In this document: positions 57,474 through 64,000 of the stretch, piece after piece
Layout: the number at the start of each line of letters is the position of its first letter
How positions within the stretch are numbered: the stretch's first letter is position 1
Made by a program: the position numbers and the translations under genes
Assembly: GCF_003597395.2 (NCBI RefSeq)
Contig: NC_133770.1
Span: forward strand, 2,445,332-2,509,331
Direction of reading: 5' to 3'
Length of the DNA: 64,000 bases
From: Chelonoidis abingdonii
Lineage: Eukaryota; Chordata; Testudines; Testudinidae
Notes under the pieces: model-generated
Databases searched by the model: none
What the model was told of the DNA's origin: nothing
Seen by the model: the letters and a program-made list of their open reading frames with translations, nothing else

Positions 57474-58378
57474 TGTCGTGGAAAAGACCATCACTTTATT
57501 GAATTTGAATCAGATAGCCTGAGGCAACCTTTATTGTTATAGCAAGAATACAGGTGTACACAGGGAGAGACGGCGTAGTCTTATGCAAAAGATAGGCCGC
57601 TCTGCCCCTTACAAATTTCACCAAGCTTATAAAGGTTAAAACCGCAAAACGTCATATTGGTTACACAAGTTATTTGCCTTTTTTGGTAATTAATATTGCA
57701 AATCAGCAGGTTATGTACTGTGAGTTCAGTTTGGGGTGTTTCCAGCTACAATTATGCTGACTGTCTTATGACCCCTTGATACATATTGCAAAAGTCATTA
57801 AAATATTGCTTATTAGCAAGCTAGTCAAACATATTTCATGTGTTCTGGCAGTGATTGAGCTGGTTATTTTGATAACCCCTCCTTGGAGTTTCCCTTAAAC
57901 AAGCATTATCCATTATATATACTGCATAAGGAAAAGCTGGCACTCGAGGGGGCCCCTTGCCCCCCCCCCCTTAGTTCTTCTTTTGTCAGTGTTCTATACC
58001 CTGTTTCTTCATATCTAGTTTCCTCCCCACCCAGTGCCTGGTATACTGATAAACAAGTTTATTTGAGAACTAAAACCATGGCTTTTATTTTACATTAATT
58101 TTTAGCTAAAGCTTAAGGCCTGGATATATGGGCTTGTAGGACCATAAAGCTAAAAGCATTTAATTGTTACAATTTTATATGTTAAAATTATAGAGGCTTA
58201 TATCAGTGTCAGGGCTCTGCAGCAGGGACTGATTTGATTACTATTTTAATCAGGGTCCCGCTGCAGTATCCATGACAGTGACAGCAAACTCTTAAAGGCA
58301 GTGATGGCTAGACAAGGCTCTATATGGATGGTTGCAAAGCTTCGTCTAACAAGACGGGGGGGGGTATGGTCCCTCACA
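57474..58378 (-). mobile_element. ERV-C 3' LTR
   Basis: On the minus strand it runs from TGTGAGGGACCATACC to TTTTCCACGACA, 905 bp, directly after the polypurine tract. TATAAGCTTGG (minus, about 57635) and AATAAAGGTTGCC (57535) give TATA and polyadenylation signals. A second AATAAA lies near 57500. A G/C homopolymer at 58356-58364 is present near the LTR start. Confidence 0.85.
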
Positions 58379-58393
58379 TTCCCTCCTTTTGAT
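58379..58393 (-). other. ERV-C polypurine tract
   Basis: The minus strand reads CAAAAGGAGGGAA directly before the LTR. It is nearly identical to that of ERV-B. Confidence 0.85.
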
Positions 58394-58414
58394 GCCTTTT
58401 ATGGCATCAAACTT

Positions 58415-58900
58415 TTAAACTTGGGTATTTAGTAAGTTGAGAACTTCCGTGTTCAAGTCTTGAGCTTCGAAGTAAGAGGGGTTGTTATTATTTTTGTAAA
58501 TTGGCGAAACTAGGGCTAACGATTGTGGTGAGGTGCGTGGGGTAGATATTGGGCTGGGGCAATATTTTTTTTTACAGCAACAGGAACAAATACAAATAGA
58601 TAACAATAGTCCTCCCCCCAATAAGCGCCATACAAGATACTTATGAGCAAGGGATGGCTGGAGGACCTTTGTAATTTTGGCAGAGGACATCTGTATCCAC
58701 ACAGAGAGTAGTGAGTCTATGGGCAGTTAGGAAGACATTTAGCTCGTGCCTGATACATGTTTTTAAGGATGTGGAACTGCCTTTGTAATTGGGAGATTTG
58801 TTGGACTTCTGGTAAAAGAGACAACAACGTATGAAAGCGATCTGGCACTATTTTACATGCGTGCACCTGAGCCAGAGGCCAATACCAGCTTGATTTAAAG
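58415..58900 (-). pseudogene. ERV-C env transmembrane C-terminal remnant
   Basis: The minus strand near 58630-58560 encodes a membrane-anchor-like run (WRLLGGGLLLSICIC) followed by clustered cysteines and lysines (SCCCKKKYC), typical of a palmitoylated cytoplasmic border. A heptad-like LLPEVQQISQLQRQFHILKN lies further upstream (about 58815-58755). Frames change between them. Position just 5' of the polypurine tract supports env. Confidence 0.6.
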
Positions 58901-60197
58901 AAAAACTAAATTAAAGTAGATTATTCAGATTTGAAAGACAAACATTTTGCAAACAGTTTAAGTTTTTAAGAAGGTAGATCAGATTTTTGTATTCAGTGGA
59001 CAAGGACGTGCAGATGTTTATTAAAAAATTTAAACTACTGAACCAAGACACAAGACCCTTCACTGAAGCTCTTTTACCAGTTTAACAGAATACAACCACA
59101 AATATTACATTAATACATACACGTACAGAGCAAGGTGATACTTTTGCTGACAGCATTCTGGAACCCCCATGATGTGACTATTGTGGAGAAGGGAAAAACT
59201 GAGTTTTTATTAGCGTTGCTTTTACCCCTACATTATAACCGATTTCAACTGGTGCTAGACAAAACTGAAACTCTGAACACCAAGAGAGATCAGCTAGCCT
59301 GTGTAAGAGACATGTTTTGCAGCTTAAAGAAGGGGTTATTTAGGATACAGCCACAGGTCCATTTAAAAGCTCTACCTAGGGTTTGACTGGACATGCCACA
59401 AAAGCCTCTGAAAAATAGTTAGTCTGAAGAAACTAGTCTACCCTAGAACTCAGTATTTTTAGTGTTTGTATTAAATATGGAAGGGTTATGGCTTTACTTG
59501 TAACAGGAGCTGTTGGAATAAGCTGTTGAATGCACTGGAGCTGAGGGGGTCCTAGGGGCCAATCAGTTCACAGGTTATCCTAATTCTATCCAAATATTAG
59601 GTGTTATTTCTGGGGCGCCAATCAAGAAATGGTTAGGGCCATTGGGTGGTTTTACTTCCCACACATCCCGGTGGATGACCCAGTCCCACATACGACCTTC
59701 CCAAGGATCTGGGAGGATTCGATATGCGGGAGCCCACACCCCTTTTACGGGCCCATAGGCCTGGAAGGAGCATTGTGAGCACCAGCATTTTTATCCAGAA
59801 AATCTTTGAGTGGGTCTCCAGGGCTATAACTTAGGTGGTATGCCTGAGGCATTTGTAAGGGCAGTGGGCCAGGTTTGGTGCTTGAGGTCTTTTGAGTGGA
59901 GGCTAGCTGGACATTAAGGAGATTTCTGTATTTCAGAGCAAGCATGGTCCCACTGCGATACCTTTCCAGCCTCAGCGATACTTAAGATTAATTTTTTTTT
60001 AGCAAATCTTGGGTAAAGACCCGAAGAGTGGAGACAACACGCAATTCGCTCACCAGCCCAGACACCGCTTACCTGCGCCCTGGAAATAAGCCCTATGGTC
60101 TATTTTATTTGGCCCATTTTTATTATGCTACTGATTTTTTAAATATCCCAAACTGAGGTGGCACTATTTTTCCTGTCCCATAAGGAGCCAGCTAAGA
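58901..60197 (-). other. Decayed env region of ERV-C, no firm gene
   Basis: Minus-strand protein-like runs occur at 59945-59745 (KPGPLPLQMPQAYHLSYSPG) and, in another frame, around 59740-59590 (WVIHRDVWEVKPPNGP), both plausible env but not assignable. The plus-strand ORF 59135-59386 is probably chance. Confidence 0.4.
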
Positions 60198-60217
60198 CCC
60201 TTTTTTTTTTTTTTTTT

Positions 60218-60480
60218 GGCGGGAGGATGCACCCCAAGTTTGCTGCTGTACTAATCCAAGGGCAGCCCCTTGGGAGCAGTTGGGCAGGTAGTAGTGATTT
60301 GGAAGTGGGATTAGAGGTGGAATAAATTTGATAGTTCCTAGTCTGGCATTAAATATGGTCCATTTGAACCCCCCAGAGTTTCCTTTTCTAGAAGAACCAT
60401 ACCACAACTGTTGGTTGTACACTTGGATACTTTTTCGGGAGGCTTTTATGTTCGTTACATGGGAGGGGGAATACTAAAAC
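60218..60480 (-). pseudogene. ERV-C env surface-unit-like remnant
   Basis: A minus-strand frame reads NQQLWYGSSRKGNSGGFKWT, then NARLGTIKFIPPLIPLPNHY and a CSQG segment, ending at a 20-base A-run (60198-60217 as T on the plus strand). Assigned to env by position and general character. Confidence 0.45.
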
Positions 60481-61109
60481 AGGATACAGGCTATGTTGTT
60501 GGTTACTGGAATAGCCTCTAAGCAGAAAGATATTCCCGTGGCCAGGCAAGTCCTGTGGGTATATGTTTGGTTGTTTACTAGTGAGGCTACTGATAGCTAA
60601 GATTTAGAAAAATATTACTTTCCCATCCCCACCCCAAGTTTATTAAGAAGGAGAGGTTTAAGGAACATTAAAAGTTTTATTTTCAGACAGTTTTGGCTAG
60701 CCTCCGTAAACTATTCTTTGAGATTTCGTAGTCTTAATTCACTTAGCTGTTCAGCAGTGAGGCAGCAAGGGAGAGGTTACTAGCACAATCACTCACCTTG
60801 CTTGGTTGGAGGCTTTATTATGTCCTCAGGTGGAGTTTTTAGCGAGGCTCAAAGGCTTAGTGGGTAGTGAGAACCATGGGCAGGTAGGCAATTCTTGGCA
60901 CTTTGCAGCGGTGTTGGTAATTAACAGGATTTGATAAGGTTCAGTAGTACCATGGCAATGGAGTTATTGTGCAGTAGAGTTAGTGTCGTGAGCACTGAAA
61001 GATGGTTAGCAGAGATCTGGAGGGAGAAATGGTTGCAGAGGTAGGATGCTGCACAAGAGAGGATGAATGTGTTAAGTTCTACATCCACTGAAGAGGCTGC
61101 ATTGACCCT
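60481..61109 (-). other. Region between lectin stop and env: probable lectin 3' untranslated sequence
   Basis: Minus-strand AATAAA at 60814-60819 lies 290 bases after the stop and is not followed by an A-tract in the DNA. A donor-like AAG/GTGAGT follows at about 60798. No viral protein can be read between 61109 and about 60480. Confidence 0.45.
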
Positions 61110-61718
61110 TTAAGTGATCTTAAATATTGTATCCCCTTCTGCGGCACTGGGCTTCCTCTTAGAGCACTCATCCGGCTGCTTGCAGATGAAATATCTCTCT
61201 GAGTAGCACCTGGAGCTGCTGACCCCATATTCATCCAGGTAGGCGCACTGCCCTTCCCCTCTGACCTGAAACAGGTTGTTGAATATGGTGCTGTTGGTCC
61301 ACTTCCAGGGCTGGCCCTCACCTTGTTCCCTTTGGAGGCCAATCCAGTGGTAAGGGACCCCTTTATAGCGCAGCATGAAATCCAGCTCTGGCAGGGAATC
61401 AATGGAAGCCAGAGAGGCGTTGAAGGAAGAGCAGTGGCTCTGGCTGTTGTTCCAGTTCCCTTCAGTCTTTGAGAAGTAGTAGCATTTCCCTCGGTATCCC
61501 ACCCAGCCACTTGGGCATGCAGCAGTGACATGGGGTGGGCAGCCTGGGCAGGGGAAAGGCTTCCTGGCTGCCAGTGCAATTATGGTGATGATCAAAGCTG
61601 TGATGACGACAGTAACGATAATTGGGATACGTTTAGCTTTAATGCATTTTAGGCTGAAATCAACACTTCTTCCCCTTTCTTCCACCAGTCCGTGACCCGG
61701 CAGCATTTCGTCGGTCAC
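61110..61718 (-). CDS. CLEC2/CD69-like type II C-type lectin, intronless, inside ERV-C
   Basis: A 202-residue type II membrane protein of the NK-complex lectin group (CLEC2D/CD69-like), whose relatives are ligands of NKR-P1 receptors or leukocyte activation antigens. The 30-residue cytoplasmic tail ends in basic KAKR. A membrane anchor is at 31-51 (IPIIVTVVITALIITIIALAA), then a short stalk with C57 and C60, then a complete lectin-like domain from C68. C68/C79, C96/C179 and C158/C171 form the expected disulfide pattern. WIGL is at 125-128. No EPN/QPD or WND calcium-site motif, as usual for this group. Asn-glycosylation sites are at 90, 100 and 142. Ordinary CLEC2 genes have about five exons; here all parts are in one uninterrupted ORF, so it derives from a spliced RNA. 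It lies between integrase and env of ERV-C on the same strand. The ORF is intact although viral neighbours are broken. ATG at 61718 chosen as the first in-frame ATG after a TAG at 61764-61766. Confidence 0.9.
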   Translation of the reverse strand: MTDEMLPGHGLVEERGRSVDFSLKCIKAKRIPIIVTVVITALIITIIALAARKPFPCPGCPPHVTAACPSGWVGYRGKCYYFSKTEGNWNNSQSHCSSFNASLASIDSLPELDFMLRYKGVPYHWIGLQREQGEGQPWKWTNSTIFNNLFQVRGEGQCAYLDEYGVSSSRCYSERYFICKQPDECSKRKPSAAEGDTIFKIT

Positions 61719-61727
61719 CTTTTCACT

Positions 61728-62110
61728 GTAGACCCAGTCTTCTGGTTTCAGCGAGTGGCAGAGCTACTGTATATAAAAGACCTAACACATTTTGTTAGTG
61801 CCTGGCAATAATTAGGCATTGTGTCATTTATTAAATGAATGTCCATCTGAGTCAAGGTCAGCAGGGCACTGTTGGTAGTCACATTGGGTGCCCTGGCAGA
61901 AATTTTATGAGGGCTGAGTGTGGTTTTTCAATTGGAAGTGGCTTTTTAAGGGCATTTGGCCATACTGGATTTGTGAAGCTGCACATGACTTAGTTATAAA
62001 TTGTCCAGTAAAATTGGGTTTACATTCACTGTTGCTACTCACAGGTGTGCCAAAGTTTTACAACAGTTTTGGCCTTTGCCTTTTATAAGGAAATATATTA
62101 GTAAAACTGG
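61728..62110 (-). pseudogene. ERV-C integrase, C-terminal part, running into the lectin
   Basis: After the MITE, minus-strand frames read a Lys/Thr-Val-rich run (AKAKTVVK, about 62065-62040). Later comes NYCQALTKCVRSF (about 61825-61785) and finally, in the lectin frame, LCHSLKPEDWVYSEK (61763-61719). The Pro-x-Asp-Trp-Val core matches the C-terminal-domain motif of gammaretrovirus-like integrases. The tail beyond it is replaced by lectin sequence. At least two stops and frame changes upstream. A splice-acceptor-like TTTTATATACAG/T ends at 61767, where env acceptors of gammaretroviruses are usually found. Confidence 0.6.
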
Positions 62111-62403
62111 GGCCACGTCTAGACTACGCGCCAGATCGGCGCGTTAAAATCGATCGCTCGGGGATCGAAATATCGCGTCTGGTCTGGACGAGATATCTCG
62201 ATCCCAGAGCGTGCTTAGATCGACGGAACTCCAGCTAGAGACCGGACTTCCGATTCGACACAGCGAGCACGACGGATCGATCTGCAGGTGAAGACGGGTG
62301 AGTAAATCAATTTTTAAGATTAATTGATTTCAGGCTACGCTATTCTCGTAGCTGAAATGTGCCGATCGAAAATCGATTTAATCTCCGTATTGTAGACCTG
62401 GCC
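62111..62403. mobile_element. MITE (Harbinger-like) inside the ERV-C integrase
   Basis: The ends GGCCACGTCTAGACTACG and the inverse of CGTATTGTAGACCTGGCC match at about 15 of 18 positions. A CpG-rich internal palindrome around 62140-62215 (GATATCTCGATCCC against GGGATCGAAATATCG) could fold back. TAA follows the right end. Removing it brings two integrase pieces together. Confidence 0.75.
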
Positions 62404-62590
62404 TAACACATATTTACAGGATTTTGGTATGTTTATAAAGTCAATCTGAATATTTACACAGGGTCTCCACAGAGTGGGGTGAGCTGCCGGTTTAGTTCGG
62501 ACTGGCTTTTTACTGTTGTGTGCCAGACAAATAGGGCAAGAATTACAATATTGTTGAGCCATGATCGAAAAAAAATTTTTTTTTTCCCTT
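62404..62590 (-). pseudogene. ERV-C integrase, zinc-binding and core start
   Basis: Minus-strand QQYCNSCPICLAHNSKKPVR gives the CxxC half of the HHCC zinc-binding domain, followed by the core entry NIQIDFINIPKSCKYV, whose Asp is the first of the D,D(35)E triad position. The frame ends in the MITE. Upstream, pol is lost. Confidence 0.8.
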
Positions 62591-63305
62591 GACTGCCCTG
62601 TTGCAGCCACAACTTTGGATCGATTTTTTGTTTAATTTTGTGTTTAGGCAAACCAGTTATTATAAAACAAAAAATTATACACACCAAGAGTGCCGATTTA
62701 TTTACAGACTTTTTTTTTTTAAAAAAAACCAAGATATTTTTACTTTTATAACACCTCCTTTGCAACATTTGTACTTAGTTTTACTGCTTAATTTCCTTCA
62801 ATAACTACAGAGTTAACTTAACTTTTACTTCCTCAAACCGCAGTTGCCGTTTGTAGGGCCCAATCCTTATTCTTGCTGCATTATTTTTTTCATGGGCACA
62901 GACATTATTTTACTACCGATTTAACAGTGAGGGTGGGCCTTTTGACTAAACCCCCTTTTATCTATTTATGCACACCTATTTACATACACATATTACATAT
63001 AGATGCGTCTTGTTTAATAATTAACATTTTTTTTATGTCCGGACTTAATACAATTTTTTCTTTGAGGCAATAACAACCCCTCAGCACCGTTGCATTATAA
63101 AAGAGTAATAACAGGGCTACAAACAACAAATAAAATCGGGAGAACAACAGCATAAACAGCACAATAAAATTCCTTCCTCGGTTTAACTATATTTTTGGGA
63201 AGTGGTCTTGCTGGGTTCAGGCAAATTTTAGCCAGCTGGGCAGACCCAATGTGCCCAACCTGGTCAGCATGATTGGCTCACAATGCCCACAAGGAGGGAG
63301 AGACC
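62591..63305 (-). other. Deleted/decayed reverse-transcriptase region of ERV-C
   Basis: AT-rich, with homopolymer T/A runs. No reverse-transcriptase motif is readable between protease and integrase. A full-length pol would need about 2.5 kb here, so most is deleted. Confidence 0.5.
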
Positions 63306-63600
63306 TTAACCAGCAGTTCCTGTTGCAACAAGGAATGGCTGGAGTCGGTGTCCCCCCACAGGAGCTTGTTCCTCCTGTAACAGAGCCAAAACTTCGTTCT
63401 GCACAGGATTAGGCACCTCCAGAAACACCCCATCAGGGGAGCAGAAAATGGTACAGTTTAATTTACACAGCAAATCCTTTCCCAATAGGTTGACAGGAGA
63501 ACATGGACTAAGGAGAAACACAAGATGAGCCGAAAGGGGACCAATAGAGACAGAAAGTGGGGACGAGACAGAGTGGGGAACAGGAGTATTACTCACCCCT
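63306..63600 (-). pseudogene. ERV-C protease, C-terminal part
   Basis: The minus-strand frame reads CSPVNLLGKDLLCKLNCTIF then SPDGVFLEVPN. The LLG(R/K)DLL block is the conserved C-terminal part of retroviral aspartic proteases. The catalytic DTG is upstream and not readable. Downstream the frame closes within 100 bases. Confidence 0.8.
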
Positions 63601-63845
63601 ATTGCAGTTACATCTGAAGAAAGGGGAACAGAAGGAAACTTTTATGCCCTAAGGGTAGAACGAGATACTCCAGCATTTATCGAGCAAGGGGTAGCAATAT
63701 CAGTTTATTTAAACATGAGACCGTAGGGCCAGTTTAATCAACTGACAGGAGTGGGGCGATGACATTATCAGTCTCGTTATTAGTCTCCTGGCTTTCCTAA
63801 CAATTAAGCGGTGGCGAAGGTGGAATAGGGAAAATCTGACAAGTA
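63601..63845 (-). other. ERV-C gag/pro junction, unreadable
   Basis: Some protein-like runs with stops (about 63720-63610). The catalytic part of the protease should lie here but is not recognisable. Confidence 0.4.
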
Positions 63846-63869
63846 AGGATATGGGGTTTTGTTTGGGAC

Positions 63870-64000
63870 TCCTCCAGGACGAAGAAAAAACCCAAGGGGG
63901 GACGCATGAGGCAATTTCTTATAAGATGGCTTTCCTGCTTACAGTAGACACAGCCCTTTCTACGAGAGCATTTAGTTTTCCAGTGCTCTTCTGGGAAAGG
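63870..64000 (-). pseudogene. ERV-C gag nucleocapsid zinc knuckle
   Basis: The minus strand reads EHWKTKCSRRKGCVYCKQES then HLIRNC. CVYCKQESHLIRNC is a C-x2-C-x4-H-x4-C knuckle, which packages genomic RNA in functional viruses. The reading frame enters from beyond the window edge. Confidence 0.8.

Follow-up and report, generated by a model that had tools for sequence, protein, structure and literature searches.

The 64,000-nucleotide stretch of the tortoise Chelonoidis abingdonii genome analysed here (C2:2,445,332-2,509,331, hereafter the window) carries, inside a degenerate endogenous retrovirus (ERV), an open reading frame for a CLEC2-type lectin, and we consider it very probable that, at the boundary of pol and env, the ERV family of this provirus acquired spliced host mRNAs, which it then disseminated as cargo. 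The comparisons indicate that this one family accounts for no fewer than three transductions of host mRNA, all inside some 300 bases of viral sequence, and that at least one of the carriers is a recombinant. Searches were carried out over the whole 2.26-Gb genome. A census seeded with the integrase end gave at least 41 places, window included, and the 30 best loci were examined; the window is one of these as well, and three others (L023, L025, L028) overlap L002, L003 and L004. Among the 30 loci, 24 have neither lectin nor joint, four have the joint of a first lectin (lectin 1) and two contain a second one (lectin 2), the integrase end reaching into lectin 1 at 4 of the at least 41 places.

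Lectin 1 and its viral joints

The frame of lectin 1 lies on the minus strand and runs from a GTG at 61718 (202 codons) or an ATG at 61706 (198 codons) to a TAA at 61112-61110. The product (61110..61706) has the layout of a CLEC2D-like type II lectin, with a cytoplasmic part, a transmembrane segment and a C-type lectin domain, as judged from the sequence and from its Pfam (Lectin_C, 3.4e-13), PDB and UniRef matches. Indeed, the top PDB relatives are CLEC2D (3e-41) and CD69 (1e-35), in agreement with an earlier note on this DNA that had described an open CLEC2/CD69-type frame at 61110-61718 of the minus strand, and the nearest listed proteins are CLEC2D-like proteins of tortoises and turtles. 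No relative was found in phage and viral-contig collections. One UniRef protein of C. abingdonii, P0001, is 100% identical to lectin 1 over 88% of the query and has a different C-terminus. Lectin 1 is nearer to P0002 of Gopherus (86% at the protein level) than to P0011 of C. abingdonii (80%); the gene of P0011 need not be its direct parent.

The gene that codes for P0011 is a multi-exon gene at C12:3.05-3.07 Mb, and its blocks match window nucleotides 61719-61661 (86%), 61661-61568 (98%), 61570-61382 (87%), 61383-61271 (88%) and 61272-60939 (91%), the last block extending into the 3' untranslated region (3'UTR). The four introns that separate these five blocks in the host are missing from the window, so that the comparison with a multi-exon gene bears out the lectin's description as intronless. 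From the host-exon blocks and the junction letters, the host cDNA spans 60939..61726 on the minus strand and comprises exons 2-6 without introns and part of the 3'UTR, with no poly(A). Its 5' joint is the host exon 1/exon 2 border: the host intron ends in ATAG and is followed by GTGGAGGGGTGAC, and the window reads GGGTCTACA followed by GTGAAAAGGTGAC. At the other end, the insert stops inside the host 3'UTR at 60939. The sequence prior to capture was read from an alignment of seven of the 24 lectin-free loci, in which the position of GGGTCTACA runs on into about 46 nucleotides of pol and then into the sequence that the window has after the lectin. As the lectin-free copies hold these 46 nucleotides, lectin 1 has replaced about 46 nucleotides of the integrase 3' end, and reading through the joint (LKPEDWVY followed by SEKVTDEML) places pol and lectin in one shared frame. 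No GT donor is present at the joint position in these seven copies. The pol-end stretch adjoins integrase, wholly or in part, in 23 of the 24 lectin-free loci, the exception being L042. The position between integrase and env proposed earlier is therefore correct as to the viral flanks, but the lectin takes up the integrase 3' end in frame and the end of pol resumes after it, at 60938-60866.

The integrase-lectin joint is also found at four other chromosomal places and on an unplaced contig, C994. Locus L002 (C1:347.49 Mb) is collinear at 91.6% with window nucleotides 59605-62107, a span that takes in the lectin and both joints; the 5' joint recurs in L018 (C2:12.51 Mb), L022 (C18:13.63 Mb) and L024 (C1:104.35 Mb), and C994 holds both joints. 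Pairs of long terminal repeats (LTRs) and target-site duplications (TSDs) were obtained for L002 (LTR identity 95.5%, 38 of 946 positions differing; TSD GCAC), L022 (96.9%, 17 of 937; TSD GTGA) and L024 (93-94% in two pieces, 44 of 1007; TSD TCTG), gaps being counted in each length. Since three carriers of the joint have paired LTRs and different 4-bp TSDs, the cargo moved as a retrovirus, and the capture envisaged in the earlier note is supported by L002, where both junctions lie inside an LTR-flanked provirus. The distinct TSDs at the LTR edges of L002, L022 and L024 also refute, for these three, the duplication of a single provirus-containing genomic segment, an explanation that we regard as extremely improbable even though C994 matches part of the window at 95.6%, most of the differences being insertions or deletions, and may have arisen by duplication or be chimeric. 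This unplaced 6.7-kb contig (L005, L015, L016) is near-identical to the window provirus in its centre (28 mismatches in 2205 positions), differs from it at 194 of 1582 positions (about 12%) at the 5' end and has 89% identity at the 3' end. It is thus mosaic with respect to the window, and may be a recombinant, a duplicate, a chimera or an assembly product.

Lectin 2, MAFK and recombination

A different CLEC2 gene, CLEC2B-like and with 53 and 49% amino acid identity to lectin 1, is found in L003 (C1:80.08 Mb) and L004 (C3:8.78 Mb). It sits just inside the start of env, in L003 after a signal-like env start. The best-matching host gene is at C12:3.293-3.302 Mb, with exons at 92, 96, 91 and 95%, and the final exon is matched by the last exon of a host paralogue (89%); four host introns are missing from lectin 2, the fourth judged by the paralogue. 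Four other CLEC2 stretches of C12 were considered as parent and proved not to be it. The host match ends 3 nucleotides past the stop codon, with no host 3'UTR and no poly(A), and a genome search with lectin 2 returned no further intronless copy scoring above lectin 1. In L004 the frame is open over the transmembrane segment and the lectin domain, and in L003 the front part is in another frame. A 16-nucleotide viral stretch stands 5' of lectin 2 in L003 and 3' of it in L004, an arrangement that could have arisen by a switch of template to a point further upstream or by duplication of a target site. On the env side of L004 (167-1063, minus strand) there is an open frame of 299 residues that matches DUF1182 weakly (1.8e-4, under the cut-off).

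The membership of both lectins in the CLEC2 family is borne out by the sequence matches and by a tree of 48 proteins (200 bootstraps), in which their closest relatives are CLEC2/CD69 proteins. Lectin 1 clusters with the tortoise proteins P0002 and P0011 (99/89) and lectin 2, with lower support, with P0121 of Gopherus (92/84), inside a wider seven-member group to which P0122 of Chelonoidis and proteins of Mauremys and Chrysemys also belong (99/92). A grouping of the viral lectins with each other received 0% support.

These data can be set against the competing model of the earlier note, a processed retrocopy of the lectin made by a long interspersed nuclear element (LINE) and landed in one old provirus. 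A copy of this kind would be intronless, as observed, and the 16-nucleotide stretch on opposite sides of lectin 2 also speaks for it. However, LINE copies retain the host 3' end, whereas lectin 1 ends inside the 3'UTR, lectin 2 ends 3 nucleotides past its stop, and neither has poly(A). Moreover, the joint recurs at several sites in the chromosomes, and in three cases the provirus around it has a TSD of its own. The A20 run reported at 60198-60217 is actually one of 17 A (60217-60201) and each of the 10 related copies that could be aligned over it has a shorter run. Given the missing poly(A), the truncated 3' ends and the several loci, we reject this origin, which is refuted as a single-locus event for lectin 1 and is overall very hard to credit.

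The third cargo comes from a gene of another kind. In L022 and L024, 33 nucleotides of lectin exon 2 are followed by the 5'UTR and coding sequence of MAFK, a small Maf, and then by env-side sequence, the spliced cDNA occupying L022:1956-2423. It matches Pfam bZIP_Maf (8.5e-23), with MafG as the closest solved structure. Host MAFK (C9:11.94 Mb) matches the viral copies at 82%; its intron of about 1.17 kb is missing from them, and they have no poly(A). A zipper deletion and a shortened C-terminus are common to both copies, of which that in L022 is open (155 residues) and that in L024 has one stop. The 33-nucleotide remnant of lectin 1 that precedes MAFK indicates that MAFK entered a virus already bearing lectin 1, most of which it replaced.

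Recombination is suggested by two sets of differences. A nested 294-bp element with terminal inverted repeats (62110..62403, no strand assigned) interrupts integrase in the window, is present in L022 and partly in C994, and is not found in L002 and L024; it probably travelled with the retrovirus, as two proviruses at different loci carry it. In pol, the window and L022 differ by 1.5% and L022 and L024 by 6.8%, whereas in the downstream env segment it is L022 and L024 that are closer (3.5%) and the window and L022 more distant (6.8%). L022 thus looks mosaic, as co-packaged genomes would give.

The carrier family and the window provirus

The primer-binding sites, TGGTGCCGTGACTCAGAT in L002 and TGGTGCCGTGACTCGGAT in L022, are presumably tRNA-His-like. 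The L022 provirus (piece L051) contains a gamma-type capsid (Pfam Gag_p30, 2.6e-13), and matches to RVP (8e-6, above the cut-off) and to RNase_H (2.8e-6) were obtained in the L003 provirus and in one lectin-free locus, respectively. The target duplications GCAC, GTGA and TCTG all have the 4 bp that we take as the rule for class I. The broken env-side pieces that were searched did not match the gamma-type env of Pfam (TLV_coat); for this reason the gamma-like carrier family is labelled class I-like, and env is so named by its position and signal-like start only.

In the window, the cargo has the viral orientation with viral sequence on either side, as had been noted before: traces of protease and a zinc knuckle upstream, a polypurine tract and the 3' LTR downstream. 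All viral features are on the minus strand. The gag nucleocapsid trace (63800..64000) contains a zinc-knuckle-like motif, and the broken protease trace (63309..63641) matches RVP at 0.067, under the cut-off. A broken N-terminal trace of integrase (62404..62631), similar to pieces of lectin-free loci, and the degenerate 3' part (61727..62109), which ends in LKPEDWVY at lectin exon 2 and is the segment common to the at least 41 places, flank the nested element. The latter part we take to be integrase from a motif; PDB and Pfam searches with the window piece gave no match that names it, and Integrase_H2C2 reaches 0.053 in L030, under the cut-off. After the lectin come the last stretch of the pol end (60866..60938), recognised from the seven aligned lectin-free loci, and, at 60865..60866, a point where about 119 nucleotides with the env ATG and signal-like start are gone in comparison with lectin-free copies. 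This deletion is shared by the window, L002 and C994; its ends are GT..AG, which would suit the fixation of a spliced RNA in the lectin-1 lineage. The broken env-side region (58379..60865) is shared with lectin-free loci and includes the A-run and an AATAAA (60819-60814) that is kept in 7 of 7 lectin-free copies aligned; both are viral and were rejected as signs of a poly(A) tail. An 18-nucleotide repeat at 60680/62056, considered as a target duplication, lies outside the true joints (61726, 60939). The 3' LTR (57474..58378, TG..CA) follows the polypurine tract and is homologous to the LTRs of L002, L022 and L024, and of the 5' LTR only a 59-bp remnant is present.

Selection, proposed mechanism and related systems

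We have analysed the changes accumulated by the cargoes, gap columns being dropped in the counts for lectin 1 and MAFK and in those of strand bias. The lectin of L002 has 18 private changes that include 3 stops. The 21 changes private to the window lectin comprise 8 synonymous, 13 nonsynonymous and 0 stops, where neutrality predicts 5.8, 14.4 and 0.8; at this neutral stop rate, and ignoring insertions and deletions, zero stops in 21 changes are expected about 45% of the time. Such neutral-like changes do not sustain the proposal of recent arrival or continued selection made in the earlier note. They likewise make it improbable that the tortoise has domesticated the window frame and keeps it by host selection, for which one could invoke its 202 open codons, in comparison with the three stops of the sister copy L002, and the existence of a UniRef gene model, albeit with a different C-terminus.

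The direction of the changes differs among the cargoes. Those private to the window lectin are balanced between the strands (C>T 7, G>A 7), which fits decay in the germline, and the 38 changes of lectin 1 relative to the host gene show no asymmetry either (A>G 12, G>A 9, T>C 5, C>T 4), the polarity not being fixed in this comparison with a host paralogue. By contrast, 17 of the 31 changes common to both viral MAFK copies are G>A on the coding strand and one is C>T, in a count that leaves out the last 40 alignment columns. This asymmetry is hypermutation-like, as expected of retroviral replication.

Concerning the mechanism, switching of reverse transcriptase to packaged host mRNAs as templates is the most likely route of uptake, after which the captured cargo would have been replicated as part of the provirus. 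Carriers would often have been defective and served by helper functions in trans, like classical transducing retroviruses; such help is probable because integrase is damaged and three carriers also have a defective env start. The least certain steps are the last ones, in which infected cells would display the lectins as type II glycoproteins at their surface and the lectins, by analogy with the viral lectin RCTL described below, would engage receptors of the NKR-P1 (KLRB1) type and damp the attack of natural killer (NK) cells. Viral MAFK may have altered transcription in the infected cell.

Several observations weigh against viral uptake and spread of host mRNAs. The carrier family is known here from its genome sequence alone; all carriers of lectin 1 and lectin 2 examined have broken viral genes, and no autonomous lectin-bearing virus was seen among them. 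The names integrase and env come in part from motifs and position, the latter without the Pfam match mentioned above. The 5' joint of lectin 1, lying on an exon border, would also be compatible with splicing of a read-through RNA, and the 16-nucleotide stretch of lectin 2 is readable as the target duplication of a LINE-type insertion. The mosaic pattern is weak in two segments, where the L022-L024 and window-L022 differences are 4.3 and 5.0% (upstream env) and 3.7 and 2.6% (integrase end). Finally, no signal of purifying selection was detected on lectin 1 or on viral MAFK, the latter judged from 48 shared changes that include a non-homologous 3' tail.

It is quite conceivable, if on the doubtful side, that the cargoes entered by chance and were copied by the ERV machinery as neutral passengers with no gain to the virus: purifying selection was not detected, only the window, among the six places with lectin 1, has the frame open over its whole length, integrase is damaged in the carriers and the env start is missing in three. 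On the other hand, one boundary received three different genes, including two immune lectins from a single family, MAFK replaced lectin 1 in a virus that already bore it, and the strand-biased G>A changes in both MAFK copies point to evolution during viral replication. We tentatively entertain, at somewhat short of an even chance, that the pol-env boundary is a recurrent cargo slot through which two CLEC2 ligands of NK receptors were gained as missing-self decoys, with later exchange of cargo (lectin to MAFK) and recombination, which would make this family a retroviral counterpart of herpesvirus evasion through NKR-P1.

Acute transforming retroviruses carry spliced host cDNA in genomes that have usually lost viral genes in exchange, and one such cargo, v-maf, is a large Maf. 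The AS42 retrovirus with v-maf (PMC4763111) is alike in having a Maf-family cargo; the tortoise cargo, MAFK, is instead a small Maf, has a deletion in its zipper and has no known link to tumours. Among crocodilian ERVs, CrocERV29 has KIT-ligand (KITLG) between pol and env and CrocERV31 has nectin3 at the expense of env (PMC4299795). That work documents spliced host mRNAs in reptile ERVs, frames that outlast broken proviruses and several copies, as in the tortoise, but describes one gene per ERV group and reports purifying selection; the tortoise family has three genes, two of them CLEC2 lectins, a cargo replacement and no selection signal. RCTL of rat cytomegalovirus is a viral CLEC2D homologue which engages the inhibitory receptor NKR-P1B and appears to substitute for a host Clr-b-like ligand (PMC4041007). 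It is alike as a CLEC2D-family lectin that is borne by a virus and resembles that of the host, and it is the source of the function proposed above; it differs in belonging to a herpesvirus, in its spliced lectin gene and in that binding and an in vivo effect were shown, whereas the tortoise lectins are known from their sequences. A turtle virus, chelonid herpesvirus 5, has two predicted C-type lectin-like type II proteins, F-lec1 and F-lec2, again a herpesvirus case; the lectins compared in that paper share only 12-23% identity (PMC3462797).

A search of open-access titles and abstract openings, with subscription papers and preprints mostly outside it, brought up no ERV that carries MAFK, CLEC2 or another C-type lectin, and no ERV family with several successive captures. 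Most known cases in which a retrovirus has taken a host gene concern oncogenes of laboratory or farm viruses. The annotation of C. abingdonii calls for a warning, as three UniRef models, P0001, P0165 and (from its residues) P0166, look like cargo of proviruses and not like ordinary host genes. A single natural family here offers at least three captures together with the host genes, the joints, the empty relatives and the integration marks, all within one genome; since the captures can be read in this way, the mechanism can be dated and tested. As two of the cargoes belong to the CLEC2 family of NK ligands, the class that a herpesvirus uses against NK cells, evasion of NK cells by a retrovirus through a stolen ligand becomes testable as well.

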